This document shows positions 23,171-37,057 of a stretch of DNA of 53,043 nt, one piece after another. The notes under the pieces were generated by a model. The model did not search any database, had not been told where the DNA came from, and saw nothing but the letters and a program-made list of their open reading frames with translations. This DNA is from Emticicia agri (GTDB lineage: Bacteria; Bacteroidota; Bacteroidia; Cytophagales; Spirosomataceae): assembly GCF_004168285.1 (NCBI RefSeq), contig NZ_SEWF01000039.1:1-53043 (forward strand), in the 5' to 3' direction. Position 1 is the stretch's first letter. Every line of letters starts with the position of its first letter. Position numbers and translations under genes: made by a program.

Positions 23171-26100
23171 ATGAAATCTTCGCTGCTCAGTTTCAAGCGT
23201 AAGTCATTACGATTGATTAATACTTTTGTCCTTTCTTTTTTTACATTCGGTATAACAGTCTATATCAGTAGTTGCGCAAAACTGAATGAAGTAGGCATCT
23301 CTGCCCGAAACTTCGAAGATGAAATTCAGCAGGCACAAAACCTCGTTTTTACTTTTAATAAAGACCTGGTAGGAGAAAAGGATTTAGATAACTGGGAGGC
23401 CGTAGAGTACGTAAAAATTGAGCCAAAAGTAGAGGGTGTTTTCAAATGGGTAGCTAAAAACGAACTGGTTTTTTCACCAAGCAGTGGTTTTAAACCTGCT
23501 ACAGCCTACAAGGCTGTGCTTAGCAAACCTTTGCTGAATAAATCGGCCACTAAAAACTATACTTTAGACAATGAGACCGTAGAGTTTCATACCCCTTATC
23601 TGCAACCTCAAAAAATAGAAAGCTACTGGATGAAAGGTGCTGACGGCAAGCCAACAGCCAAAGTGAAGATTGATTTCAACTATCCTGTTCAAAAAAATGA
23701 ATTGAATAGCTTAGTAAAACTCAAAGTTGAAGATGCGGATAAGAATTTCATTGTTAATAATACAGGTAACGATAGCAAGATTGTACTGGCTTTGAATGAT
23801 GCGCCTTCATCAAAAGATGAAACACCATTAACAGCTAATATTGAGAAAGGCGTAAAAATGTCGGGTGGGGGAGCAAGCACGCAACAAATCTATACTTTAG
23901 AGGGAGTAATACCTTCACCTTATGATGTGAAAGTAATTGATGTTGAAACAGGATTTGAAGGTAATCAGGGATTTGTAAAAATAATAACTACCCAACAGAT
24001 TGCAGATGATAAACTGAAAGATGCTTATACCATTGAACCTGCGGTAGAAACCCAGACCGAAGTAACCGAAAATGGTTTTATTATTAAAGGATTTTTCAGC
24101 ACAACCGAAGCTTACACGCTGACAATTAAAGATAATCTGAGAGGTACATTAGGTGCAAAATTAGACGGAAATTATACCAAAGACCTGTTCTTTGGCGAAA
24201 TGCCTGCCAGTCTTGAATTTACCAATAAAAAAGGCTTGTATCTATCGTCAAAAGGTAGCCGGAATATCGGGATAAGAATCACGAATATTCCTAAAGTAAA
24301 GGTGAAAGTGATGAAAGTTTATGAAAATAATATCTTAGCCTACCTGCGTAATAACCGTTACGAAGATTACTACTATGACGGGGAAAGTAGTACACCTAAT
24401 GGCTATACTTATGGTGATGACGGACAAGGATTTTACAGCGATGTGCTGATGGACAGAACTATTGAAACAGGCAACCTGCCGAAAATTCATGGCACCTCAG
24501 TTTTAAATATGCCATTGCCTGACCAAAGCAAACTGAGAGGCGTGTATTTAGTGAATATGAATTCGAACGATGAGTACTATTTCAATGCAAGTAAATTAGT
24601 TTCAGTATCGGATATAGGTATCATAGCCAAGAAGTCTGACAGTGGCAATGAAGTAATGGTTTTTGTGAACTCAATAATTGATGCACAGGCATTAGGAGAT
24701 GTAGAAGTAAACCTGATTAGTTCGAATAATCAGGTGATAGAGACACTCAAAACAGATACCAAAGGGGTTGTTATCTTTGAAAAACTTCAGGAAAAAGCAC
24801 CGAACTTCAAGGTAGCTATGATTACGGTTCGCACAGACGATGATTTTAATTATATGCTCTTAGAAGATACACAGGTAGAAACTTCACGGTTTGAGGTGGA
24901 CGGTAAACGAGCCAATGCAAGTGGGTATGATGCCTTTGTGTATGGCGACCGTGATATCTATCGTCCGGGAGAAACAATCCATTTTAATATAGTTATAAGA
25001 GATAGTAAATGGGCTTCGGCAGAGGATATTCCATTAAAAATCAAGTTATTATTACCCAATGGCAGGGAGTTTAAATCGTTTCTGAAAAATACCAATGCAC
25101 AAGGAGCCGTAGATACTTCAGTTCCGCTCGACCGTGCGGCTGTTACAGGTAATTATTCGGTAGAAGTATATAATGGCAATGATGTACTGTTAACCTCAAA
25201 ATCTATCAGTGTAGAGGAGTTTATGCCCGACCGTATTAAGGTAGATTTATCAGCAAAGGAAATTTATCGCTCGGGCGAAACGATTTCTGTACAGGCCATC
25301 GCTACTAATCTTTTTGGTCCTCCGGCATCGAATCGTAATTATGAAATGGATTTCAGTCTGAAAAGAAAAGTATTTACAGCCAAAGGCTTTGAGAACTATA
25401 CTTTTGATATACAGAATGATACAAAATTCAATAACGATTTACGGCAGGGCGTAACAAATGAGAATGGAGTGGGGGTACAGAGTTTTGAAATTCCGGCTAC
25501 TTATAAAGATATGGGCGTGCTGGAAGGAAAAGTTTTTGTAACCGTTTTTGACGAAACAGGCCGCCCGCTTAATCGTATGCAACGGTTTGATGTATTTACG
25601 CAGGAAACATTTTTTGGTATCAGCCTGCCTGATTATTATGTAGGTACTCATGTACCCATGGCTATTCCGTTAGTAGCTTTAAATACTGCAGGTAAAATAC
25701 CGAACAAAGCCCGTGCTACTGTAGATATTTATCGCATAGAATACCAGACGGTTGTTGAAAAAACAGATGGCGTTATCCGCTATAATTCTAAGCGTCAGGA
25801 GAAATTAGCCCAAACCAAAGAAGTAGATTTTTCGGGTGGTAAAGCTAACATTAAATTTATTCCGCAAGTATCCGGCGAATACGAAATCCGTATTTATACC
25901 GTAGGTGCTGAAAGCTATGCTGCACAAGGGTTTTATGCTTATGGCTATGGTAGTACCTCTAACAGTTCGTTTGAGGTAAGTAACGAGGGGCAGGTATTGA
26001 TGGAAATGGATAAGGAAAAGTATCAGGTAGGCGATAATGCCAAGATTCTGATGAAAACGCCTTTTGCCGGAAAAATGCTGGTTACTGTAGAAAGAAATAA

Positions 26101-28630
26101 AGTATTAGAGCATTTTTATGTGGAAACGGATAAAAAATCGGCAGAAGTTGAAGTGAAAATTACAGAAGATATGCTGCCGAATGTCTATGTAACAGCTACC
26201 TTGATTCGCCCGATGAAAGGAATAGATATGCCATTGACCGTAGCGCATGGGTTTGCACCTATGAAAGTAGAAAAGTCGGACAACTTGCTGCCTGTGCAGA
26301 TTGTAGCTGCCAAAGAATCACGTTCTAAACGTAAACAAAAAATTACAATCAAAAGTAAGTCTAATACAGAGCTGACAGTAGCCGTAGTAGACGAAGGGAT
26401 TCTGCAAATCAAGAATTTCAAAACACCTGATATTTACAATTATTTCTATCAGAAACAGGCATTAGAAGTAAGTAGCCACGATTTATACCAATTCCTGTTT
26501 CCTGAGTTATCGTTGTCAAGCAATAGCAGTATCGGGGGCGACGGGTATAATCTGGAAAAACGGGTAAATCCGCTAAGCAATGGCCGTACTAAATTAGTAG
26601 CTATCTGGAGTGGTATCCTGAAAACTAACTCGAGTGGAGAAGCACAGTTTGAGTTTGATATACCGCAGTTTTCGGGTGATTTAAGGATTATGGCTGTGGC
26701 CTATAATGATGAGGCTTTTGGCTCGGCTAATACCAATATGAAGGTAAAAGACCCGATAGTGATTAGTACAGGTGCTCCAAGATTTTTAAGCCCTAACGAC
26801 GAAGTGATTATTCCGGTTACCATTACTAATACTACCAACAACAGTACTTCTGTAAATGCTTCGGTAAATCTTACGGGTGGCTTGGCTTTACAAAGCCAGA
26901 ATAATCAGTCTATTGCTATTCCGGCAGGCAAAGAGGTCAGAACCTTATTTACTGTCAAAGCCCCTCCGGCCATTGGTAATGGGAGCATTGCTGTAACAGT
27001 CAATGGCTTTAAAGAGAAATTTTCTGAAACCATAGACCTGACTATCAGACCAAGTACTTCGCTTCTGAAAAGTTCTTTTTCCGGCGATGTGTTAGCAGGC
27101 AAAACAGCCGCAGTTAGTCTGGCTAACGATTATATGCCGGGTACAGCACAGGCAAGTTTGTTGGTGAGCCGCTCGCCTATGGTACAATTTGCCAAAGAGT
27201 TAGATTATTTATTAGGCTATCCGCATGGGTGTATAGAGCAAACGGTGTCTAAGGCTTTCCCACAATTATACTTTGCCGATTTTACCAAAACCATAGCTAA
27301 AAAATCGAAGTCTATAGGTTTGAAAGGAGATAACGACTGGAATCCACAGTTTAATGTGCAAGCGGCTATCCGTAAAATTGAGAGTATGCAATTAGCCAGC
27401 GGTGGCTTGAGCTATTGGCCGGGCAGTGATTATGAAAGCTGGTGGGGTACTATCTTTGCCACGCACTTCATGATTGAAGCCAAAAAAGCAGATTATGAAG
27501 TAAACGAAAACATTCTTAACCGGATGTTAGATTACCTGACTACCAAAACATCTATGCAGGAAACTACGGAGTTAGAATATATTTATGTTGAGAACGGTAC
27601 CTATAATACCCGTACCATTGCCAAACGTAGCATGATATACTCGCTTTATACCTTAGCTTTAGCTGGTAAGGCAAATCAGCCTGTGATGAATTATTATAAA
27701 TCGAATGAGAATCTGCTGACAATTGATACCCGCTATATGTTAGGCGCAAGCTTTGCTCAGATTGGCGACGAAAGTAGTGCCAAACAACTGATTCCGAGAG
27801 ATTACCTGTTAGAAACCACAGCCAAAGAAACCGGAGGAAGTTTCTCTTCACCCATCCGTAATCTGGCTATTTCATTAAACAGTTTGGTAGAATCTGACCC
27901 TCAGAATTTGCAGATTCCAAAAATGGCAAGAGTATTGTCTCAGGCAGTAAAGACCAGCCGTTATCTGTCAACCCAGGAATCTGTATTCAGTTTCCTTGCT
28001 TTGGGTAAAATTGCTAAACGCAATGGAGAATCAAATGTAACAGCAACCTTAATGGCTGATAACAAGCAACTGGCCAGTTTCACAGGTACCGATTTATCTT
28101 TAGACAAAGGATTAGCCGGAAAAACGGTTAATATCAATGCCAAAGGTAAAGGGGCTCTCTATTATTTTGCCCAACAGGAAGGGTTAAGTGCTACCGGAAG
28201 TTATGTAGAAGAAGATAACTTCCTGAAAGTACGCAGGCAGTTCTTTAGCCGTACAGGCCAACCGCTTTCGGCTAATCAATTCAAGCAAAACCAGTTGGTT
28301 GTAGTGAAAGTAAGTATCAGTGGCACTACACCTGTTGAAAACGTAGTAGTAACTGATATGCTACCTGCGGCTTTTGAAATAGAAAATCCTCGTCTGAATG
28401 AAGACCGTGATATGACCTGGATAAAAAATGCGTCAACACCTCAGCACTTTGATATACGAGACGATAGAATTAACTTCTATACTACAGCCGACGGTACAGA
28501 GCGCAGTTTCTATTATCTCGTTAGGGTGGTATCCCGTGGTAAATTTGTTATTGGTCCGGTAGCTGCCGATGCCATGTATAACGGCGAATATCATAGCTAT
28601 AATGGTGGAGGCACCGTAACGGTAGAATAA
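23171..28630 (+). CDS. Alpha-2-macroglobulin family lipoprotein with thioester motif
   Basis: Bacterial alpha-2-macroglobulins are periplasmic protease traps. This 1819-residue protein starts with a signal sequence ending in a lipobox (YISSC, cysteine about 35), so it is membrane-anchored. Repeated beta-sandwich MG domains follow, including an MG2-type stretch with YGDRDIYRPGETIHF near residue 595. The alpha-2-macroglobulin core (about 1120-1240) holds a bait-like region and GEAQFEFDIPQFSGDLRIMAVAY. GCIEQT (C1354) is the internal thioester motif CxEQ within a helical toroid domain, and a receptor-like C-terminal domain closes the protein. The usual pbpC partner is not adjacent. A strong terminator follows at 28640. 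Confidence 0.93.
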   Translation: MKSSLLSFKRKSLRLINTFVLSFFTFGITVYISSCAKLNEVGISARNFEDEIQQAQNLVFTFNKDLVGEKDLDNWEAVEYVKIEPKVEGVFKWVAKNELVFSPSSGFKPATAYKAVLSKPLLNKSATKNYTLDNETVEFHTPYLQPQKIESYWMKGADGKPTAKVKIDFNYPVQKNELNSLVKLKVEDADKNFIVNNTGNDSKIVLALNDAPSSKDETPLTANIEKGVKMSGGGASTQQIYTLEGVIPSPYDVKVIDVETGFEGNQGFVKIITTQQIADDKLKDAYTIEPAVETQTEVTENGFIIKGFFSTTEAYTLTIKDNLRGTLGAKLDGNYTKDLFFGEMPASLEFTNKKGLYLSSKGSRNIGIRITNIPKVKVKVMKVYENNILAYLRNNRYEDYYYDGESSTPNGYTYGDDGQGFYSDVLMDRTIETGNLPKIHGTSVLNMPLPDQSKLRGVYLVNMNSNDEYYFNASKLVSVSDIGIIAKKSDSGNEVMVFVNSIIDAQALGDVEVNLISSNNQVIETLKTDTKGVVIFEKLQEKAPNFKVAMITVRTDDDFNYMLLEDTQVETSRFEVDGKRANASGYDAFVYGDRDIYRPGETIHFNIVIRDSKWASAEDIPLKIKLLLPNGREFKSFLKNTNAQGAVDTSVPLDRAAVTGNYSVEVYNGNDVLLTSKSISVEEFMPDRIKVDLSAKEIYRSGETISVQAIATNLFGPPASNRNYEMDFSLKRKVFTAKGFENYTFDIQNDTKFNNDLRQGVTNENGVGVQSFEIPATYKDMGVLEGKVFVTVFDETGRPLNRMQRFDVFTQETFFGISLPDYYVGTHVPMAIPLVALNTAGKIPNKARATVDIYRIEYQTVVEKTDGVIRYNSKRQEKLAQTKEVDFSGGKANIKFIPQVSGEYEIRIYTVGAESYAAQGFYAYGYGSTSNSSFEVSNEGQVLMEMDKEKYQVGDNAKILMKTPFAGKMLVTVERNKVLEHFYVETDKKSAEVEVKITEDMLPNVYVTATLIRPMKGIDMPLTVAHGFAPMKVEKSDNLLPVQIVAAKESRSKRKQKITIKSKSNTELTVAVVDEGILQIKNFKTPDIYNYFYQKQALEVSSHDLYQFLFPELSLSSNSSIGGDGYNLEKRVNPLSNGRTKLVAIWSGILKTNSSGEAQFEFDIPQFSGDLRIMAVAYNDEAFGSANTNMKVKDPIVISTGAPRFLSPNDEVIIPVTITNTTNNSTSVNASVNLTGGLALQSQNNQSIAIPAGKEVRTLFTVKAPPAIGNGSIAVTVNGFKEKFSETIDLTIRPSTSLLKSSFSGDVLAGKTAAVSLANDYMPGTAQASLLVSRSPMVQFAKELDYLLGYPHGCIEQTVSKAFPQLYFADFTKTIAKKSKSIGLKGDNDWNPQFNVQAAIRKIESMQLASGGLSYWPGSDYESWWGTIFATHFMIEAKKADYEVNENILNRMLDYLTTKTSMQETTELEYIYVENGTYNTRTIAKRSMIYSLYTLALAGKANQPVMNYYKSNENLLTIDTRYMLGASFAQIGDESSAKQLIPRDYLLETTAKETGGSFSSPIRNLAISLNSLVESDPQNLQIPKMARVLSQAVKTSRYLSTQESVFSFLALGKIAKRNGESNVTATLMADNKQLASFTGTDLSLDKGLAGKTVNINAKGKGALYYFAQQEGLSATGSYVEEDNFLKVRRQFFSRTGQPLSANQFKQNQLVVVKVSISGTTPVENVVVTDMLPAAFEIENPRLNEDRDMTWIKNASTPQHFDIRDDRINFYTTADGTERSFYYLVRVVSRGKFVIGPVAADAMYNGEYHSYNGGGTVTVE

Positions 28631-28760: not shown

Positions 28761-29480
28761 ATGGCTAATCCGGCATTTTCGGAAAAAACATTTACTAAAA
28801 TCGACCTCGCTGGCCACAATGGCGATGTGATGACTGTACAAAGTACTCTTAATAAAGTGGGTATTTTATTATTTATACTGATTGCCTCTTCGACAGTATC
28901 GTGGATTGGACTGTTAGAAGGTTGGAGTATTGCCCCCATGCTTATTCCGGCTGGTAGTATCGGTGGTTTGCTATGTGCTGTTGTATTGGTATTTAAAAAA
29001 GAATGGGCACCACAATTAGCACCTACTTATGCCTTGTTAGAGGGTTTGGCTATCGGGGCTATCTCAGCTATTTTTCAGGATTTAGCTTTTATGGCCGCAG
29101 GTCTGACTTTCGGTGTGGTATTAATCATGTGGTTCTTATACAAAACTAAAATACTACAAGCTACCCGTGGCTTTATTATGGGTGTTACAGCCGCTACAGG
29201 TGCTGTTTTTCTGGTGTATTTACTAACCTGGATATTAGGCATGTTTGGTATCAGCATACCTTATATTCATGAAGGTGGTAAGGTTGGTATTATCTTCTCG
29301 TTGGCAGTGGTAACTATTGCCGCTATGAATCTGATTATTGATTTTCATCTGATAGAACAAGGGGCAGAAATGCGTGCGCCTAAGTTTATGGAGTGGTATT
29401 CAGCTTTTGGATTGATGGTAACTATCGTATGGTTATATCTTGAAATTCTGAAATTATTAGCTAAAATCTCCCGTAAATAG
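28761..29480 (+). CDS. Bax inhibitor-1/YccA family membrane protein
   Basis: This 239-residue integral membrane protein has seven hydrophobic segments spread from about residue 35 to 235 and matches the bacterial BI-1-like family, in the longer YccA/YbhL-related branch. APTYALLEGLAIGAISAIFQ and the FGVVLIMWFLYK segment are characteristic, as is the last helix, FMEWYSAFGLMVTIVWLYLEIL, with its acidic residue. Family members are thought to mediate pH-sensitive Ca2+ leak or interact with membrane proteases, but the role in Bacteroidota is not defined. It is a single gene bounded by terminators on both sides. Confidence 0.92.
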   Translation: MANPAFSEKTFTKIDLAGHNGDVMTVQSTLNKVGILLFILIASSTVSWIGLLEGWSIAPMLIPAGSIGGLLCAVVLVFKKEWAPQLAPTYALLEGLAIGAISAIFQDLAFMAAGLTFGVVLIMWFLYKTKILQATRGFIMGVTAATGAVFLVYLLTWILGMFGISIPYIHEGGKVGIIFSLAVVTIAAMNLIIDFHLIEQGAEMRAPKFMEWYSAFGLMVTIVWLYLEILKLLAKISRK

Positions 29481-29495
29481 ATTTATCAAAAATTT

Positions 29496-29538
29496 ATAAC
29501 ACAGAAAGCCTGCTTCAAAAGTGGGCTTTCTGTGTTAT
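29496..29538. terminator. Bidirectional terminator hairpin
   Basis: A perfect 15-base inverted repeat (ATAACACAGAAAGCC at 29496-29510, complement at 29524-29538) with a 13-base loop lies between the convergent BI-1 gene (ends 29480) and the XrtN operon (ends 29617). Confidence 0.85.
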
Positions 29539-29616
29539 GATAAGCATACAAAAAAGAAAACCCATATAAAACTACATGGATTTTGCTCGCTAACCCCTAA
29601 ATCAACTATGCTACTT

Positions 29617-30912
29617 TTATAGCCACTCAGCAATGACTTTCTTTAACTCATGTTCTGAATCTGCGGTTACATTAATGAGTTTAAATTTATGTTCTCCTTT
29701 CAATACCCTCCATCGCCATTCTAACTGGCTATTAGTGATGACTTCACCATTCGTAAACCACCAGGCGGTGTAAAGTTTATCATTTTTGGTTGTTAATACC
29801 CCTGTATAAATCGGATAACTTTGTACTATCTCTTCTTTGATTTTTTCAAAAGTATAACCGCTCCCTTTCCAACAAAAAATAGGGCTATGTTCACCCGAAT
29901 AAAAGTCAGGAATTGGTTTCAGGTAAACCAGGGCTTTATCGCTTTTCATTTGAGTGATGCCCGTGTTTAGTACTTTTGCCTGGTAATTGGCTTTTTCATG
30001 TTTCTCTGTTATTATCTGCTCTTGCGCTTTTGTTGAACCTGTAAATGACAATATCAGATAGGCAGTAACTGAAAGAAACAAGCCATTCATTATCCACTGC
30101 CTTAATCCTGTTTCCTCAATTTTTGGCTCTACCGATTCAGTCACTTGCTTTAAAGCAATTTGCCTGATAATCCCTACCATCGGTAGCCAGACATATATCA
30201 GTAAGCAACAGATACCTAATACATCATGTAAGAAATTATCCGGTGTAATTCTGAAAATAACCAGAAGCAGGATTCTACATAAATTACTCAGAATATTGAG
30301 CAGAAAAGTGATAGTTAAAGCTAATAACTGCCAGCCAAATGTGAGTTTTTTCTGATAAATATCCTGATAATAGGCTAGTAAAAAGATGCACATTAAAAAC
30401 GATAACCCAAGCATTTGCAGACCTGTGCAGGCGGCATCAACTAAAAAATCATTACCATTTAATACAATCATATTACCATTTATTTCAACAGGAAAATGTA
30501 AAAAAGAGAGTATTTGCCCACTGATTTCGCTCAGCCAGATACGAATCGGAAAAGTAAAACTTTCAGCTACATACCTGAAAAGAGGAGACATAAGCAGAAG
30601 CACAAGAAATGCCAGTTCACTCAGCTTACCAAACAGTGTCTCAAAGCAAAACAATAAGGCAACTATCAGTAACAGATACCTGATTGAAAAAGTAGGCACA
30701 TAAAAGGAAACAATAGTCAGAAGCAAAGTCGGGATAAGAAAACGCATACTCTTATTGCCCGGTGTACCTGCTTTCAGTACATAAACCAATATGCCTGCTC
30801 CCAAGATAAAAACAGAGTCGCCTAAAAAATATCCCTTATAGCTGATACAGATAAATAAAGCTATATAGGCCATAAGGAAAATTACTTTAGGATAACTGGT
30901 CGCTTTAAACAT
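29617..30912 (-). CDS. xrtN: Exosortase XrtN
   Basis: Exosortases are integral-membrane cysteine proteases or transpeptidases that process proteins bearing PEP-CTERM-like tails. This 431-residue protein has about ten hydrophobic segments in its first 285 residues. The catalytic triad is visible in the expected order: C162 in DAACTGLQML, R213 in NLCRILLLVIFRI and H229 in FLHDVLGICC. A periplasmic C-terminal domain of about 145 residues follows. The combination with an immediately upstream VIT-domain gene (1-base gap) identifies the XrtN subtype of Bacteroidota, which is known as a family with one adjacent apparent target. Biochemical function remains unproven. It is the last gene of its operon. 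Confidence 0.9.
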   Translation of the reverse strand: MFKATSYPKVIFLMAYIALFICISYKGYFLGDSVFILGAGILVYVLKAGTPGNKSMRFLIPTLLLTIVSFYVPTFSIRYLLLIVALLFCFETLFGKLSELAFLVLLLMSPLFRYVAESFTFPIRIWLSEISGQILSFLHFPVEINGNMIVLNGNDFLVDAACTGLQMLGLSFLMCIFLLAYYQDIYQKKLTFGWQLLALTITFLLNILSNLCRILLLVIFRITPDNFLHDVLGICCLLIYVWLPMVGIIRQIALKQVTESVEPKIEETGLRQWIMNGLFLSVTAYLILSFTGSTKAQEQIITEKHEKANYQAKVLNTGITQMKSDKALVYLKPIPDFYSGEHSPIFCWKGSGYTFEKIKEEIVQSYPIYTGVLTTKNDKLYTAWWFTNGEVITNSQLEWRWRVLKGEHKFKLINVTADSEHELKKVIAEWL

Positions 30913-30913
30913 T

Positions 30914-33430
30914 TTACAAGAATCGCTTTAAAAGGAAATAAAGTATAACACCAGCAAACGTAATAATTAACAACCATTCGTGCGGTTCTGGTACTGAGCC
31001 TGATGATTTAAGCGTAGCATTTTCAAGACTGTTCTGACTTTTCTTTATATCAAAGCGTTCATAGTCTTTTTGTGTCTCCAATACTATCAGACTTGAGATA
31101 GGTGTTACAATATTAGCTGTAGCTGCTTCCTGAATAAGCGAATCAGAAAGATAATCTTGTTTAAAATACTTAGCCCCGATTTGTTGCATGATATGGGTGT
31201 AAGCATACAACCGAAGCAGATGGTTTGGGGCATCTGTTTGTTCTTGGGTTTTTGCCACCTCTGTAATCTGCATTTGAGCACTTTCGATGTTGACAGATGT
31301 TTTAGCAGGAGAATGGAGAACTTTATAGAGTTTTTGATTCTGTAATTGTTCAATACTCATCTGATTAACGGCTACTACGCCTAACTCTTTTAAGGTTTTT
31401 AAGTAGGACGATAGCGTTTCATTGAGTGATACTACCTGAATAGGTTCTTTGTCGATATTGATATTTTTGGTAGCCTGTGCAAAGTTACTTCCTTCTAATT
31501 GTTGCAGATTAGGCGCTTTAAATGTGCCTTTGGTAATCAGTAAGCATTGTCTATTTGATGTGGGGATTCGGTATAGGGGAAAAAGGCTGAAATTATTTTC
31601 CTTTAATTCGTAGAATAACCTATCTTTATTCTTCTCACTCAATCGTATTAAGCCATCTTTCCATACCCATATTTCTTTAGCTGTAAAAGTTGAGTAGATA
31701 TCATCAAACTCTGATTTGCTCCACTCTGCATTCACATCTAAATAGATTTTATCAGGACTATAAGATACTTTCTGAACGAATAAAGGCGATAAGACATAGC
31801 TTTTGCCCTGAAAAGTAAATGGCTTTTTCGATAGGGCAGGTGTTTTGAAACGCAATTGCCAGTCAGATTTATAAGAACCACTGTGTTCGATTGTACCGGA
31901 TGCATTAGCCTGCCAGGGATTAGATAGACCCTCTATCGGTTGAGAGAAGTCTATTCTGACAGTTTCTTTAGTATCGCTTGCATCAGGGCCTTTAAAATAA
32001 ATGTTTTTATAAATCAATTGTCCATTGCTTTCTTTCAGTGGCGACGTAATTCCTATTTTAACCCTTCTTGCTTCTTGCGGCGTACACGGAAAAACTCTTA
32101 TGCTTACTGTATTGCCCTCTTGCCAATGAACTACTGAAGGATCCCGGCTTTCAACGCCTACAATCGTTTTATAGGCAGAATCGGCTTTACTTTTAGTAGT
32201 CAGATAACCTTTTTCTTCTTTGCCATTAATCCAGAGCGAAAGAGAGGAAACTACCGAACCCTCTGGTAAGTAGAATGTATAGATAGCCTCCTGATTTCGC
32301 CATGAATATTTTCCGCTATTAGCAATGCTAAGTGTTTTCTCAGTATAAGCCATCCGGTATTCAGGATAGATTCTGGTTTGGGTAATAATGTCTTGTGTTA
32401 CTAATTGGTCGCCTGCCCAAAGCCTTACCTGCGTTTCATGGTTTATATCTTGTATAGCTCCTAATATTTTAATTTTTTCATTAGTCTCAATTGCTGGTTT
32501 CTGACTGAACAACGAGGCGGTCATCACTAAGGGGTCGTGTTGTAAACTCCCGAAATTACCCGTTGTTGGCATAAAATTGAATCGGGTATCGAAATTCTGA
32601 TATAGTAAATCGCCTTTCAGAATGCGTTCTGTAATCCAGTTATTTTCTACTTTCTGAGCTACTGCTATCCAGTTTGGCACCTCATCGGTGGTACTTGTGA
32701 AAGACTTCTGATAAGCCTCATGGATTTGATTCTGGGTGATGTTCCACTGAATCACAAAGAAGATGGTGAAGACAACAGGCGTGAGGATTCCAAACAGGAT
32801 AGCATTGTTGTGTGAATGCCAGGTTCTTTTAAGCAGTTTGACGTGAGCGATTAATAAAATAAGAGGGATAAATGAATGAAAACCAAGCCCCAGAAAAAGA
32901 ATGAGCATAAAACTAACGGGGTATAACCAAATAGTATAAAGCGTAAAATAGGCCCATAAAACAGTTGAGGCAGCGCAAAAGACATATAGTACCTCTTTAA
33001 ATCTTTTAGAAAGATGAGGTTCCCAATAAAACAGAATATTACTCAGGCACGAAAGAACAAGAGCTACTGAAAGCCAATCGGTTGACTCCTGAAAGACATC
33101 AACCTCCCGGTTTAATGTAAAACAACTGACAATCCATATCTGCCACGCAAGTAAACGATAAGCGGTATATTCTTTGGGCTGGGCTTTCCAGAATACCTTC
33201 ATTCTTTTGGTAAACAGTAAGAAAACTGTATAGCCAACTGCAAATATCATGGCAACAAAAGACATTGAAAACTCTCGTCGTTCATGCGTACCAAGAAAAA
33301 TTGACAAGGATATGAGCAAGAGTAATAGCCCGAAAAAGTAGTCAATAGTAGGTACATAATCATACCAGTATTTTTTTGTTTGGGCAATAAGTTCCTGGGG
33401 CCGGCTGCCCGGCTCTTTAATTGTTTCCAT
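30914..33430 (-). CDS. XrtN-system VIT domain protein
   Basis: This 838-residue protein is the presumed substrate of XrtN. The first 235 residues contain several membrane helices in a multi-pass region. A VIT domain lies around residues 355-470 (AIYTFYLPEGSVVSSLSLWING, then YKTIVGVESRDPSVVHW), as in inter-alpha-trypsin-inhibitor heavy chains. No von Willebrand A metal site is evident behind it. The last 26 residues form a sorting-type tail: VPEP (813-816), a hydrophobic helix and a basic KRFL end. Exosortase processing would occur near the PEP motif. DUF4173 lies 25 bases upstream and XrtN one base downstream, so the three form an operon. Confidence 0.9.
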   Translation of the reverse strand: METIKEPGSRPQELIAQTKKYWYDYVPTIDYFFGLLLLLISLSIFLGTHERREFSMSFVAMIFAVGYTVFLLFTKRMKVFWKAQPKEYTAYRLLAWQIWIVSCFTLNREVDVFQESTDWLSVALVLSCLSNILFYWEPHLSKRFKEVLYVFCAASTVLWAYFTLYTIWLYPVSFMLILFLGLGFHSFIPLILLIAHVKLLKRTWHSHNNAILFGILTPVVFTIFFVIQWNITQNQIHEAYQKSFTSTTDEVPNWIAVAQKVENNWITERILKGDLLYQNFDTRFNFMPTTGNFGSLQHDPLVMTASLFSQKPAIETNEKIKILGAIQDINHETQVRLWAGDQLVTQDIITQTRIYPEYRMAYTEKTLSIANSGKYSWRNQEAIYTFYLPEGSVVSSLSLWINGKEEKGYLTTKSKADSAYKTIVGVESRDPSVVHWQEGNTVSIRVFPCTPQEARRVKIGITSPLKESNGQLIYKNIYFKGPDASDTKETVRIDFSQPIEGLSNPWQANASGTIEHSGSYKSDWQLRFKTPALSKKPFTFQGKSYVLSPLFVQKVSYSPDKIYLDVNAEWSKSEFDDIYSTFTAKEIWVWKDGLIRLSEKNKDRLFYELKENNFSLFPLYRIPTSNRQCLLITKGTFKAPNLQQLEGSNFAQATKNINIDKEPIQVVSLNETLSSYLKTLKELGVVAVNQMSIEQLQNQKLYKVLHSPAKTSVNIESAQMQITEVAKTQEQTDAPNHLLRLYAYTHIMQQIGAKYFKQDYLSDSLIQEAATANIVTPISSLIVLETQKDYERFDIKKSQNSLENATLKSSGSVPEPHEWLLIITFAGVILYFLLKRFL

Positions 33431-33455
33431 AAGATGTTTGATTGAAGGTGAAGAT

Positions 33456-34994
33456 TTATTGGTTTTGTGTCACAGGAGGAATGTAATCCTCTAATTTCTT
33501 ATCTTTAAAATAATCCACAGCTTTGCTATTAGATAAATCCCATGAAACCCATGTATAACCTTGTTGGTCTGTCAGGTATCTTTTTATCTTGTTGTTTAGC
33601 TTGTTAATTTCATTTACCTGATTAATATTCGGAGTCTGCTTAATTCGCTCTGCTATTTTCTCCTTGTTTTCATAAAGAATCGGAAGTGTTCTTGGAGAGA
33701 GTTCATACAAATATTGATAGTCAATATTTGCTGCACTTTGTGTACTTAAATTGTATCGGGCAATCATACTATCCCAATCAAAAAGCGCCAGACTTACAAA
33801 AGCTATGTAAAATACCCACCCGGCTTGCTTAACCACATGAAAGAATGAATACAGTTTTTTTATCTTCATCCACATCAGCACCAATCCTGCTGAAGTAAGC
33901 ACCAGAAAGAATACCACCCCGATACGCTTATGTGTGAGCCCATAATTGATAATGTATTCGTAGTTGCGTAGTAATACAGAAATAACCAGAATTCCGTTCT
34001 GGATAATCCAGATGTAGGAAGCCGTTAAAAGCCATTTATTATCCGGCAGAAAATTCAGGTCTTTGCGGAAATAGAAAAGCAATATGGCAATGGAGAGAAG
34101 GATGCTGAAAATCAGAAGATTGGTGCCTTCATGCACTAATTGCGACAATTCTACTGCCGATTTTAAATCTCCACCTACATTAAACCAGATAAATCGTATG
34201 TCTATACTATTGATAATGAGCAGTAATATATTGACCGAACCTATCAAGAGCAAAGCGGTTTTATACTCGTTTTTTACACTTGTTTCGTTGATACTTTCAG
34301 AAACAATTAAAGTCTTCGGGCTTTTAAAAACAAAGAAGTTGTGAATACCTTTGGCTCTTTCCCAGTCTTTCAGCACACAAATAATGAGAAATGCTCCGAA
34401 AAGAATAAAGATGATATGTGGCAGAGAGAGCGTATTGAAGAACTGATTAAACGCTTGAAAAAAGACTGAGAAGGTTGAGTCAAGCATATTGCTGAATACC
34501 GGATTGGCAGTCTTAAAAATTGCCAGAAAAATAAGAAACACTATTACAGGTATAATAAATAGCTTAACAGCTCTCAGAATCGGATTGAGTTTTTTGTTAT
34601 GTCCGTTAGTAGAGTTATTTGTACTTGCCAGTAAGATAAATGGTTCAAATGTACTCATCAGTGCGTTCACCCCGAATTGAAATAGGGCCCCGCTGACACT
34701 TGTCAGTTGAGGGCGATGCAGAAAACCTACCAGAACAATGAAAGAAAAAAAATGACCGAATGCACTGATTACAGAATTATGTACAACAACTAATACTGCA
34801 CTAAGAATGGTGAGTAACAAGGCCGTTTTTATGGCTAAAGAATGGAGTTTTATTTTGTTGAAATAAATAAATAAACTAATCAATAAGCTATTAAATATCA
34901 ATAGATTAATTCCGGGTTTTTCTTGCCAGAAAAAATAATTGAAGAGGGTAGTCAGCAGTACAAATGCTAAAACTTTGAGCGTAGTAGATGACAT
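33456..34994 (-). CDS. DUF4173-type multi-pass membrane protein
   Basis: The 512-residue protein has about twelve hydrophobic helices and then a soluble C-terminal region (about 430-512). The pattern fits DUF4173/DUF4153-like membrane proteins, for example YEYIINYGLTHKRIGVVFFL near residue 350, a phrase typical of DUF4173. The terminal part contains DQQGYTWVSWDLSNSKAVDYF. Its function is unknown. It is the first gene of the XrtN transcription unit and directly follows an inverted-repeat promoter (35015-35033), so it is expected to work with the XrtN/VIT pair, although the sequence gives no mechanism. Confidence 0.75.
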   Translation of the reverse strand: MSSTTLKVLAFVLLTTLFNYFFWQEKPGINLLIFNSLLISLFIYFNKIKLHSLAIKTALLLTILSAVLVVVHNSVISAFGHFFSFIVLVGFLHRPQLTSVSGALFQFGVNALMSTFEPFILLASTNNSTNGHNKKLNPILRAVKLFIIPVIVFLIFLAIFKTANPVFSNMLDSTFSVFFQAFNQFFNTLSLPHIIFILFGAFLIICVLKDWERAKGIHNFFVFKSPKTLIVSESINETSVKNEYKTALLLIGSVNILLLIINSIDIRFIWFNVGGDLKSAVELSQLVHEGTNLLIFSILLSIAILLFYFRKDLNFLPDNKWLLTASYIWIIQNGILVISVLLRNYEYIINYGLTHKRIGVVFFLVLTSAGLVLMWMKIKKLYSFFHVVKQAGWVFYIAFVSLALFDWDSMIARYNLSTQSAANIDYQYLYELSPRTLPILYENKEKIAERIKQTPNINQVNEINKLNNKIKRYLTDQQGYTWVSWDLSNSKAVDYFKDKKLEDYIPPVTQNQ

Positions 34995-35014: not shown

Positions 35015-35033
35015 ACTTTGTTTTTCAAAGTTA
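35015..35033 (-). promoter_or_regulatory. Promoter with operator-like inverted repeat, DUF4173-VIT-xrtN operon
   Basis: ACTTTG-N5-CAAAGT (35015-35031) is a perfect 6-5-6 inverted repeat in the 57-base gap between the winged-helix gene and DUF4173. Read on the minus strand, one arm is part of TAACTTTG (35033-35026), an exact match to the -7 consensus TAnnTTTG. It ends 31 bases before the ATG. The same repeat lies before the DUF1361 gene at 37041-37057. Binding of a protein here would block the core promoter. Confidence 0.65.
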
Positions 35034-35051: not shown

Positions 35052-35345
35052 TCAAGAACCTTTGATAAATTTTTCTAATTCATTCAGGTGGTCATTAAAG
35101 GCCTGTTTGCCTTCGTCTGTTACTGAATATACTGTACTTGGTTTACGGCCTATAAATTCTTTCTTGAACGAAATATAATTAGCTTCCTCAAGCGCCCGCA
35201 GGTGAGTAGCCAGGTTGCCGTCAGTCAACGACAAAAGTTCTTTCATGTTGTTGAAAGAAAGCTCTTCATTGACCATCAGCACCGACATAATACCCAAACG
35301 GGCTTTGCTTTCAAATGCTTTATTAAAATTCTGTAATAAATTCAT
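35052..35345 (-). CDS. Winged-helix transcriptional regulator
   Basis: This 97-residue protein is a stand-alone winged helix of the type found in Pfam HTH_27 or MarR/PadR-like small regulators. It has an N-terminal helix (FNKAFESKARLGIMSVLMV), the helix-turn-helix SFNNMKELLSLTDGNLATHLRALEEANYI (about 29-57), and a wing with KKEFIGRKPSTVYSVTDEGKQAF. It carries no sensor domain and probably acts as a dimer. It sits between two units whose promoters share an inverted repeat, which makes it the obvious candidate to bind there. In relatives such regulators are commonly paired with a small membrane protein, as here with the gene 39 bases upstream. Confidence 0.88.
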   Translation of the reverse strand: MNLLQNFNKAFESKARLGIMSVLMVNEELSFNNMKELLSLTDGNLATHLRALEEANYISFKKEFIGRKPSTVYSVTDEGKQAFNDHLNELEKFIKGS

Positions 35346-35384
35346 AATATAGCGACAAGCGATTGCTACTCGCCTGACAAATAC

Positions 35385-35996
35385 CTATTTAGTTTCATAC
35401 CTGAAATATACCACTGCTCCATAAATAATATGCAGTACTCCAAAACCCAATGCCCAGAAAAAAAGATTCCATTGTGCCAAAAATAGTGCTATTAAACCAA
35501 TAATGACTTCACTGATGCCTAAATAAAATGTATCGTGTACAGTGTATCTACTTGCATTGACTAACGCAATACCATAAAAAATTAACGTTGCAGGAAAACA
35601 CAACCAGAAAAAACCATGATACAGCATAGCTATACAAAACGTACCTCCGGCTAAAAGCGGAATAAGCATACTTACGAGCAAACGCTTTGAGGTTGAATTC
35701 CATAGCTGTAACCCTTGCTTTCTGGCTCTGCGTATCGTAAAAAAAGCACCTGTTACTAAAGCAGAAATCAATACTACTATGGCATCTAAAACCAGTAAAG
35801 GAACAATCTCTTCTCTTACCTGAGGGTCAAATAAATGATAGAGTGCATCTATATGTATTTTCTGATGTGCATACCATGCACCTGCTAAAGCACAAATACC
35901 TGCCGAAATACCTGATAGTCCGCTTAGTGAAAGAAACTTAGAGGAACGTTCCATCATGGAGCGTATCTCTTTAAGCTGTTCAAGGTGTTCGTTCAT
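35385..35996 (-). CDS. Hypothetical multi-pass membrane protein
   Basis: The 203-residue protein begins with a soluble helix (EHLEQLKEIRSMMERSSKF) and then has about five membrane helices in the remaining sequence (about 24-43, 68-90, 108-130, 133-150, 160-200). I cannot assign a named family with certainty. Similar proteins often stand next to small winged-helix regulators in Bacteroidota. It overlaps the diacylglycerol-kinase-family gene by four bases (translational coupling) and is followed by the regulator after 39 bases. Confidence 0.75.
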   Translation of the reverse strand: MNEHLEQLKEIRSMMERSSKFLSLSGLSGISAGICALAGAWYAHQKIHIDALYHLFDPQVREEIVPLLVLDAIVVLISALVTGAFFTIRRARKQGLQLWNSTSKRLLVSMLIPLLAGGTFCIAMLYHGFFWLCFPATLIFYGIALVNASRYTVHDTFYLGISEVIIGLIALFLAQWNLFFWALGFGVLHIIYGAVVYFRYETK

Positions 35997-36352
35997 AGAT
36001 TAGCTAATATTTTAGGCAAAAATATAATAATTCCGATAATAACTGCAATACAGGAAATGATTAAAACTGCACCAGCCGATAAATCTTTTACTTTTCCGAT
36101 TAGTGGATGGTGTTCTGTCGATACAAAGTCACATAATTTCTCAATAGCTGTATTGAATGCTTCGGCTACCCACACTAACCCGACAATGATACTTATGATT
36201 GCCCACTCGTCACTACTTAGCCCTACTAATAATCCCGTCAGCACCACTACAACTGTAGCAAATAGGTGAAATCTGGCATTATTTTCCTGCATCAGCACCC
36301 ATATACCCTGAAAAGCATACTTAAAACTACGCAACATTTTTGGTACGTTCAT
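35993..36352 (-). CDS. Diacylglycerol kinase family protein (DgkA/undecaprenol kinase-like)
   Basis: This 119-residue protein is a small trimeric-type integral-membrane lipid kinase. It has a surface helix (SFKYAFQGIWVLMQENNARFH), three membrane helices, and the catalytic motif WVAEAFNTAIEKLCDFV with the conserved glutamate and the NTAIE core. DLSAGAVLI in the last part is also conserved. Gram-negative members phosphorylate diacylglycerol and Gram-positive ones undecaprenol; which applies here cannot be told. The start overlaps the DUF1361 gene by 26 bases and its end overlaps the next gene by four, so all are cotranscribed. Confidence 0.92.
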   Translation of the reverse strand: MNVPKMLRSFKYAFQGIWVLMQENNARFHLFATVVVVLTGLLVGLSSDEWAIISIIVGLVWVAEAFNTAIEKLCDFVSTEHHPLIGKVKDLSAGAVLIISCIAVIIGIIIFLPKILANL

Positions 36353-37022
36353 ACGATGGCGGAATCAACAGATTTAAAGAAACATATAATACCATTACCA
36401 CTAACGAAAACACCATAGTTGTTTGAATAGCCAGCGGGTTTTGCAACTCCTGAAAAGACTTGCGGAACAGAAAAATAGGGTCTGTAAATAAATCCCAGCT
36501 ATTGAAACGAACAAATCGGCCTAAATATAAGCCAAAACCTGATAATACCACACTGATGGATAAAATACTCCATGCCCAGAATTTATTGGTAATCTGCCTG
36601 ATAATCTGGTGTGCTACATACAACGAATATAAACCTGTGGCTAAGCCGGCTAAAGCTACTATAAAGAAACTTACGGAATCAAACCACAGAAGACGGCTAT
36701 GTGATTCTGTCAGGTGAATTAAATCGGTAATAATATATGGCGAGTTGGGAAAAAATAAAAGCCATAACCCTAAGCATACATAAATAATCAGTTGACGGAG
36801 CCTTGTTGGTGTTTGATGCAAAAACTGATACCTGCGTGCCACCAGCACAAAAAACAAAGGTACCCAGGCTAAAAACAGATTCCAGAGCAGGTAAATACCT
36901 CTTAGTTGTTGTGTTTTAATAACTCCGGCTATTAGCAACACAAAACTCAGAAGTGTCAATAAAATCAGACTCAAAGTTGGGCGGCTAACAGAAAAGGAGA
37001 TAGTTATTTTCTTTAAATTCAT
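36327..37022 (-). CDS. DUF1361 membrane protein
   Basis: The 231-residue protein has about six or seven membrane helices and the DUF1361 hallmarks: LLWNLFLAWVPLFFVLVARR and LWLLFFPNSPYIITDLIHLT, followed by DSVSFF. The family is uncharacterised. It is the first gene of the four-gene unit DUF1361, DgkA-like, membrane protein, winged-helix regulator. Its promoter region carries the inverted repeat at 37041-37057 that is also found before the XrtN operon. Confidence 0.88.
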   Translation of the reverse strand: MNLKKITISFSVSRPTLSLILLTLLSFVLLIAGVIKTQQLRGIYLLWNLFLAWVPLFFVLVARRYQFLHQTPTRLRQLIIYVCLGLWLLFFPNSPYIITDLIHLTESHSRLLWFDSVSFFIVALAGLATGLYSLYVAHQIIRQITNKFWAWSILSISVVLSGFGLYLGRFVRFNSWDLFTDPIFLFRKSFQELQNPLAIQTTMVFSLVVMVLYVSLNLLIPPSYERTKNVA

Positions 37023-37040: not shown

Positions 37041-37057
37041 ACTTTGTAATACAAAGT
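37041..37057 (-). promoter_or_regulatory. Operator-like inverted repeat before the DUF1361 operon
   Basis: ACTTTG-N5-CAAAGT (37041-37057), with spacer TAATA, is identical in both arms and spacing to the repeat at 35015-35031. On the minus strand the arm forms TTACTTTG, one base off the -7 consensus, ending 29 bases before the ATG. The position relative to the start codon is nearly the same as in the other copy. Confidence 0.6.

Follow-up and report, generated by a model that had tools for sequence, protein, structure and literature searches.

The XrtN locus of Emticicia agri

The window analysed here is a whole contig of 53,043 bases from the 6.65 Mb genome of Emticicia agri (Bacteroidota). 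Its subject is a minus-strand gene unit encoding an exosortase of the XrtN family together with the protein it is predicted to process, a membrane protein carrying a vault protein inter-alpha-trypsin (VIT) domain. The unit reads DUF4153, VIT protein, XrtN, with gaps of 25 and 1 bases (Table 1); the nearest named locus is that of Emticicia sp. C21, where the VIT protein is 80% identical. Coordinates, strand, gaps and gene sizes had been given correctly in the initial annotation, but the remaining gene was called there DUF4173, while its match is to PF13687, DUF4153 (cut-off 27 bits); no DUF4173 model matched at E<=1e-3, the presence of such a model in that Pfam copy being unchecked. The three genes are real, but the module does not end at position 34994, as had been proposed: an inverted repeat, considered here a candidate operator, lies just upstream, and beyond it a second same-strand gene run, DUF1361-DAGK-p203-HTH_34, occupies positions 35052-37022 and is preceded by its own exact copy of the repeat. 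For p203 no Pfam or NCBIfam match was found at E<=1e-3. On the other side of the unit, the stretch 29481-29620 folds with a z value of -5.33 (0 of 200 shuffles as stable); it contains a second hairpin besides the one listed.

Table 1. Features of the XrtN unit and of the adjacent regulator run
Feature	Position	Strand	Evidence
Terminator-like hairpin 3' of the DUF4153-VIT-XrtN unit	29496..29538 (approx.)	-	arms read from sequence
XrtN exosortase, 431 aa	29617..30912	-	TIGR04476 362.8 bits; PF09721 63.5 bits
VIT protein, predicted XrtN target, 838 aa	30914..33430	-	TIGR04477 911.7 bits; PF08487 VIT
DUF4153 multi-pass membrane protein, first gene of the operon	33456..34994	-	PF13687 147.7 bits
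Candidate operator ACTTTGTTTTTCAAAGT preceding DUF4153-VIT-XrtN	35015..35031	.	exact match
HTH_34 winged-helix regulator, 97 aa	35052..35345	-	PF13601 103.1 bits
p203 membrane protein, 203 aa, 6 hydropathy-predicted transmembrane segments	35385..35996	-	
DAGK_prokar lipid kinase family (DAGK)	35993..36352	-	PF01219 114.2 bits
DUF1361 membrane protein, first gene of the regulator operon	36327..37022	-	PF07099 145.1 bits
Candidate operator ACTTTGTAATACAAAGT preceding DUF1361-DAGK-p203-HTH_34	37041..37057	.	exact match

XrtN and its predicted target

The identities assigned to the exosortase and to the VIT protein in the initial annotation are well founded, both scores in Table 1 lying far above the curated cut-offs of 200 bits (TIGR04476) and 250 bits (TIGR04477). 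XrtN is composed of eight hydropathy-predicted transmembrane segments followed by a C-terminal alpha/beta domain (model predicted local distance difference test, pLDDT, 86.1), and the exosortase residues C162, R213 and H229 are identical in all 80 aligned XrtN rows. The C-terminal domain gave no Foldseek match at E<=0.001, the best being DcrB at 0.047, and a sequence search for solved relatives returned none at E<=1. A single EpsH-family exosortase (PF09721, E<=1) is present in the own genome.

The evidence is comparative throughout. Clades cannot be counted as independent of one another, many of the loci derive from metagenome assemblies, and start codons were assigned by a mechanical rule. 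In a phylum sample of 395 genomes, the own one included, XrtN exceeds its cut-off in five, and the VIT protein is found in the same five, always adjacent; none of the five carries XrtN without the VIT gene. A wider set of 80 loci, the best 80 of 273 relatives found by scanning a species-genome collection with the VIT protein as key, and therefore leaning to close relatives, gives the same picture: XrtN lies within the VIT locus in 79, with one or two small frames between them in a few, and only at L075 (genome G414) is it found on another contig (L260).

The target ends in a tail with the consensus GAVPEPHEW, which in the own genome reads GSVPEPHEW and is followed by a C-terminal transmembrane helix and KR. 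The tail residues E815, P816, E818 and W819 are each present in 80 of the 81 rows, and the one deviating row, L053, appears to be disrupted. This conservation is partly by construction, because the tail served as one of two patterns in the scan; GAVPEPHEW is found also in all four sample genomes recovered independently by the TIGR04477 model. A model built from 24 tails gave a single strong match in each of 25 XrtN genomes, always in a frame about as long as the VIT protein, and the runner-up had an E value of 0.24 or worse in every genome (0.708 in the own one); the search covered tails of the XrtN type, and unrelated tail types were not searched. Thus, many targets per genome, as in general PEP-CTERM/EpsH sorting, are not observed, and the dedicated neighbouring target proposed in the initial annotation is borne out, neither of the two findings named there as able to refute it having been obtained. 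Judged by these comparisons, XrtN is a one-substrate exosortase, and nothing in the pair itself differs from the one described by TIGR04476 and TIGR04477.

A literature search on exosortase XrtN and on the two models found no relevant paper. Another exosortase of the phylum, XrtF, is reported to matter when Flavobacterium johnsoniae colonizes surfaces; its substrates are not known (PMC10936215).

In the phylum sample, genera g60 and g65 of family f18 show many XrtN-like matches below the cut-off, and some of their genomes have separate frames whose match is confined to the C-terminal portion of the model, which gives the impression of an XrtN encoded in two halves.

Architecture and predicted fate of the VIT protein

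The VIT protein consists of about seven N-terminal transmembrane helices, the VIT domain, a degenerate vWA domain, and the tail with its C-terminal helix. An AlphaFold model based on a 49-row alignment (mean pLDDT 86.3) has seven N-terminal helices of membrane-spanning length, an ectodomain and one C-terminal helix, while hydropathy finds six N-terminal segments and the last one. Six and seven helices would put the ectodomain on opposite sides of the membrane, which weighs against the placement adopted here; loop charges favour seven modestly, the mean number of K/R over the 49 rows being 2.2, 2.8, 1.3 and 2.0 in the inside loops and 0.9, 0.9, 0.0 and 2.0 in the outside ones. With this modest fit, both ends of the protein would be cytoplasmic and the ectodomain periplasmic.

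The top Foldseek match of the model is an inter-alpha-inhibitor heavy chain (ITIH; 6fpy, E 4.8e-14, 594 columns, query TM-score 0.31, 12% identity), followed by a flagellar protein and many M1 aminopeptidases, all at E 1e-5 or weaker except the first at 7.8e-9. The sequence search for solved relatives returned five at E<=1, the best being ITIH H4 (0.0028) and the rest chance-like. Profile comparison with ten bacterial VIT-VWA proteins aligned residues 344-794 (probability 98.9, E 1.5e-17), placing YLDVNAEW near the strand of the metal ion-dependent adhesion site (MIDAS) and LLITKG opposite ITDG. A functional vWA domain carries the MIDAS motif DxSxS and the motif TDG, neither of which is found here: Asp at 565 is conserved in 49/49 rows, but position 567 is Asn in 47/49 and position 634 is Lys in 45/49, a pattern that points to a degenerate metal site.

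Release of the VIT domain from the membrane, one of the outcomes suggested in the initial annotation, is rejected on topology: both hydropathy and the model place a group of helices before the domain, so that an N-terminal anchor would remain after the tail was cut. Cleavage of targets is the family chemistry of exosortases. XrtN would cut its sole substrate at the PEPHEW tail, and either an acceptor or water would then receive the newly formed C-terminus; the substrate would be kept in the inner membrane by its N-terminal helices, and cleavage would reshape its C-terminal end. Since the substrate would be held in this way, the reaction would tether or switch an ITIH-like periplasmic domain, with no export.

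Transfer to water would be a plain hydrolysis that removes the C-terminal helix and leaves the ITIH-like domain able to move or to bind. This reading competes only with the conjugation part of the proposed mechanism. It gains from the N-terminal helices, because a protein already fixed by them in the membrane does not need a second covalent anchor; the comparisons themselves give nothing against it, but exosortases and archaeosortases are commonly regarded as transpeptidases. Hydrolysis without conjugation is a real possibility, to which we give somewhat less than even chances.

A recurrent inverted repeat and the HTH_34-p203 pair

Within the window, the inverted repeat ACTTTG-N5-CAAAGT occurs exactly twice, upstream of each of the two operons; the own genome contains four exact copies (none for the reversed control). 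The third genomic copy precedes genes for DUF2809 and a protein of the MPAB_Lcp family; in L062, one of the four loci with this family, a relative 60% identical to the latter is encoded shortly downstream of XrtN. The fourth copy lies between two reading frames (C9:99003-99019, L264) and is assigned to no gene.

The repeat was first seen in 19 genomes in which p203-HTH_34 and VIT-XrtN are unlinked, and there it is found at both loci in 19/19 with at most one mismatch, exactly in 16/19. Across the 80 VIT loci (1.617 Mb) 99 exact sites were counted, 91 of them at VIT, p203, DUF1361, DUF4153, CreD, c7 or the first gene after HTH_34; a single Markov resample, the control for these locus counts, contained none, and with one mismatch allowed it gave 6 versus 127. 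Similarly, 52 p203 loci from sampled genomes without XrtN (52 of 131 p203 genomes) contain 62 exact sites, against none in the resample.

In principle, the repeat may be the site of another regulator, or a shared promoter or RNA element, with HTH_34 and p203 as mere members of the regulon. Indeed, the half-site ACTTTG resembles the Bacteroidota -7 box, given as TAnnTTTG for Flavobacterium in PMC9723704. Moreover, the VIT site occurs without a detected p203 or close HTH_34 orthologue in two XrtN genomes, G427 and G430 (loci L092 and L096, both from metagenome-assembled genomes). Conversely, 51 of the 52 p203 loci without XrtN carry the site with at most one mismatch, mostly before the regulator's own genes. 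Whole-genome counts, taken from 73 genomes chosen by their p203/XrtN status, point the same way: 20 genomes without p203, of which one (G107) has a close HTH_34 orthologue (E<1e-40), contain 5 sites (19 for the reversed pattern), 20 with p203 and no XrtN contain 52 (control 19), and 20 XrtN genomes contain 83 (control 23). At the VIT unit the site is found in 68/71 p203-positive but in 2/6 p203-negative genomes, the other four lacking it (Fisher 3.6e-4, relatedness not corrected), a comparison that omits 8 loci of untested p203 status, 7 of them with the site. An origin of the repeat apart from HTH_34 and p203 is thus unlikely in our judgement.

HTH_34 is the best candidate for the binding protein, because it is the sole DNA-binding family named among the frequent neighbours and because a copy of the site precedes its own operon. 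In the VIT loci, a median of 19 bases separates the end of the site from the next ATG (any frame). Among 73 VIT-proximal sites, 61 continue with nCTTT, and ACTTTG is preceded by an exact TA in 10 and by TT in 37. With the site about 19 bases before ATG and its left half like a -7 box, a bound protein should block transcription. Sites also occur in pairs: in 14 loci they stand 55-71 bases apart before VIT (L046, L063, L070, L076, L087, L094, L098, L099, L100, L103, L110, L111, L114 and L115), an arrangement suggestive of cooperative binding or of two promoters, and in three loci 154-162 bases apart.

Among the sites with listed positions, others in intergenic stretches precede DUF1361, DUF2809 (both by Pfam) and an MPAB_Lcp protein, and, by eye, proteins like c7 (a 169-aa membrane family) and d3 (a 190-aa membrane family); one more precedes a MauE-like family, below the Pfam cut-off, two members of which are 54% identical. 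In L313 (by Pfam) and L322 the site lies before a serine hydrolase of the beta-lactamase family, the two being 53% identical to each other. Four sites (L318, L320, L326 and L336) have no gene start by the mechanical rule and are assigned to no gene.

Several observations, besides the likeness to the -7 box and the sites found without a detected regulator, weigh against control of the unit by HTH_34 and p203. Two loci, L064 and L101, belong to genomes with both p203 and the HTH_34 orthologue and have no site at VIT, and the separate XrtN locus of G414 (L260) has none either. Three of the XrtN/VIT genomes without p203 (G109, G423 and G424) have neither a close HTH_34 orthologue nor any exact site, therefore the regulator is not needed for the pair. 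In G433, which has the orthologue and no p203, all three sites are inside genes. They belong to nine of the additional sites looked at that fall within reading frames of 217-875 codons and were judged to be chance matches. Of four MSEP loci, from the sister system XrtK/MSEP-CTERM, two lack the site: L190 and, at MSEP, L191. Finally, with two mismatches allowed the window contains 4 sites versus 4.71 expected by chance, so only the two exact ones carry weight there.

Variable neighbours of XrtN and of p203

Within 6 kb on the VIT strand, the 80 loci contain HTH_34 and p203 in 32, DUF1361 in 17, DAGK in 16, c7 in 15, and CreD (PF06123, named from one scanned member) and DUF4153 in six each. Gene order varies and strand is constant; orders seen include DUF1361-DAGK-p203-HTH_34-VIT-XrtN, VIT-XrtN-DUF1361-DAGK and HTH_34...DAGK-DUF1361-CreD-VIT-XrtN.

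p203 is common in Bacteroidota, being found in 131 of the 395 sampled genomes (13 weakly), and is present somewhere in 41/47 XrtN genomes searched, the 42 locus genomes of that search having been chosen mostly since p203 is not beside VIT. At the 52 p203 loci without XrtN, HTH_34 lies on the same strand within 6 kb in 50, and the cargo comprises CreD and d3 (19 each), DUF1361 (13), DAGK and DUF4153 (9 each). In all 51 loci that contain both genes, the two share a strand and p203 comes first, no more than 58 bases from HTH_34 in 48 of them. A conserved N-terminal segment of p203 runs into the first helix and is a plausible contact for the regulator.

That DUF4153 works together with XrtN or with the VIT protein in a compact module, as the initial annotation had it, is very improbable: DUF4153 heads the operon here and in Emticicia sp. 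C21, but it occurs in 6/80 loci only, all six also with HTH_34-p203, and elsewhere CreD, c7 or other membrane genes replace it after HTH_34. Since it is found in 9/52 p203 loci without XrtN, DUF4153 goes with HTH_34-p203 and is apparently one option among several for the cargo of that locus.

The DAGK gene invited the thought of a lipid acceptor, which is kept as no more than that, as DAGK too follows the p203 locus without XrtN.

Convergent to the XrtN unit lie a Bax-inhibitor-like gene (28761-29480) and a gene for an alpha-2-macroglobulin-like protein of 1819 aa with the MG2, bait region, A2M and TED families (23171-28630, plus strand).

A proposed membrane-coupled regulon and the closest known systems

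We consider it fairly probable that an HTH_34-p203 switch controls the XrtN unit and that XrtN cleaves a single, membrane-retained target. HTH_34 and its membrane partner p203 would form an autoregulated, membrane-coupled switch, in which HTH_34 binds ACTTTG-N5-CAAAGT operators; because these are located near the start codon, on the core promoter or immediately downstream of it, HTH_34 would most likely act as a repressor. p203 would relay an envelope signal that lifts repression, so that XrtN and its target are made on demand. In the own genome the regulon would comprise DUF1361-DAGK-p203-HTH_34, DUF4153-VIT-XrtN and, outside the window, the DUF2809-MPAB_Lcp pair. More generally, the comparisons suggest to us that envelope proteins, among them those of two dedicated exosortase systems (XrtN and XrtK), form a regulon coupled to the membrane. 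The regulated maturation suggested in the initial annotation is thus supported at the level of transcription, by the shared site and the co-occurrence with the regulator, and not in the form of VIT release. Neither the operator nor the placement of XrtN/VIT in an HTH_34-p203 regulon was found in the literature consulted, in which the motif itself was not searched.

XrtK/MSEP-CTERM (TIGR04287/TIGR04286) is similar in that an exosortase stands beside a VIT-type target, and the VIT protein of the window matches TIGR04286 with 106.6 bits, below the cut-off of 150. At one of four MSEP loci (L188) the pair is directly behind HTH_34, with the site before XrtK; L189 has the site alone, before the MSEP gene. 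However, XrtK is short, with 166-180 aa at the three loci in which a copy was observed, and the tail is MSEP instead of PEPHEW. A search for literature on exosortases with MSEP-CTERM found none.

The marine proteobacterial sortase target TIGR03788 is likewise a named target and matches the VIT region weakly (21.2 bits, E 8.2e-05, far below the curated cut-off of 551.65), but it belongs to a sortase and not to an exosortase; no literature on VIT domains with sortases was found. CreBC/CreD of Proteobacteria is an envelope-response system under two-component control; CreD is also a frequent cargo of the HTH_34-p203 locus, which would instead be controlled by the HTH_34-p203 pair. No literature on CreD with a Bacteroidetes winged-helix regulator was found.

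In inter-alpha-inhibitor heavy chains, ester linkage of the C-terminus to chondroitin sulfate goes along with removal of a C-terminal pro-domain (PMC7170535). The parallel to the XrtN target is suggestive only, by analogy: the heavy chain is an animal protein with a functional MIDAS, whereas the VIT protein has a degenerate one and a transmembrane anchor, and its conjugation is hypothetical. In the boldest form, HTH_34-p203 would be an undescribed class of membrane-coupled transcription switch, spread widely through Bacteroidota, that turns on a set of envelope genes with XrtN and XrtK among them, each of these two covalently conjugating an inner-membrane ITIH-like VIT-vWA protein to an envelope glycan or lipid, as in the animal heavy chains; taken as a whole, this is improbable.

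Implications

Few roles have been assigned to exosortases in Bacteroidota. The idea that XrtN frees a surface domain is corrected here, and a one-enzyme, one-substrate pair with a candidate operator offers a tractable entry, in which the product is to be sought on a single protein. The common site links CreD, DUF4153, DUF1361, DUF2809 and two kinds of exosortase system, and may thus provide a shared regulatory handle for proteins of unknown function; if the regulon is true, one regulator mutant should alter the whole set.

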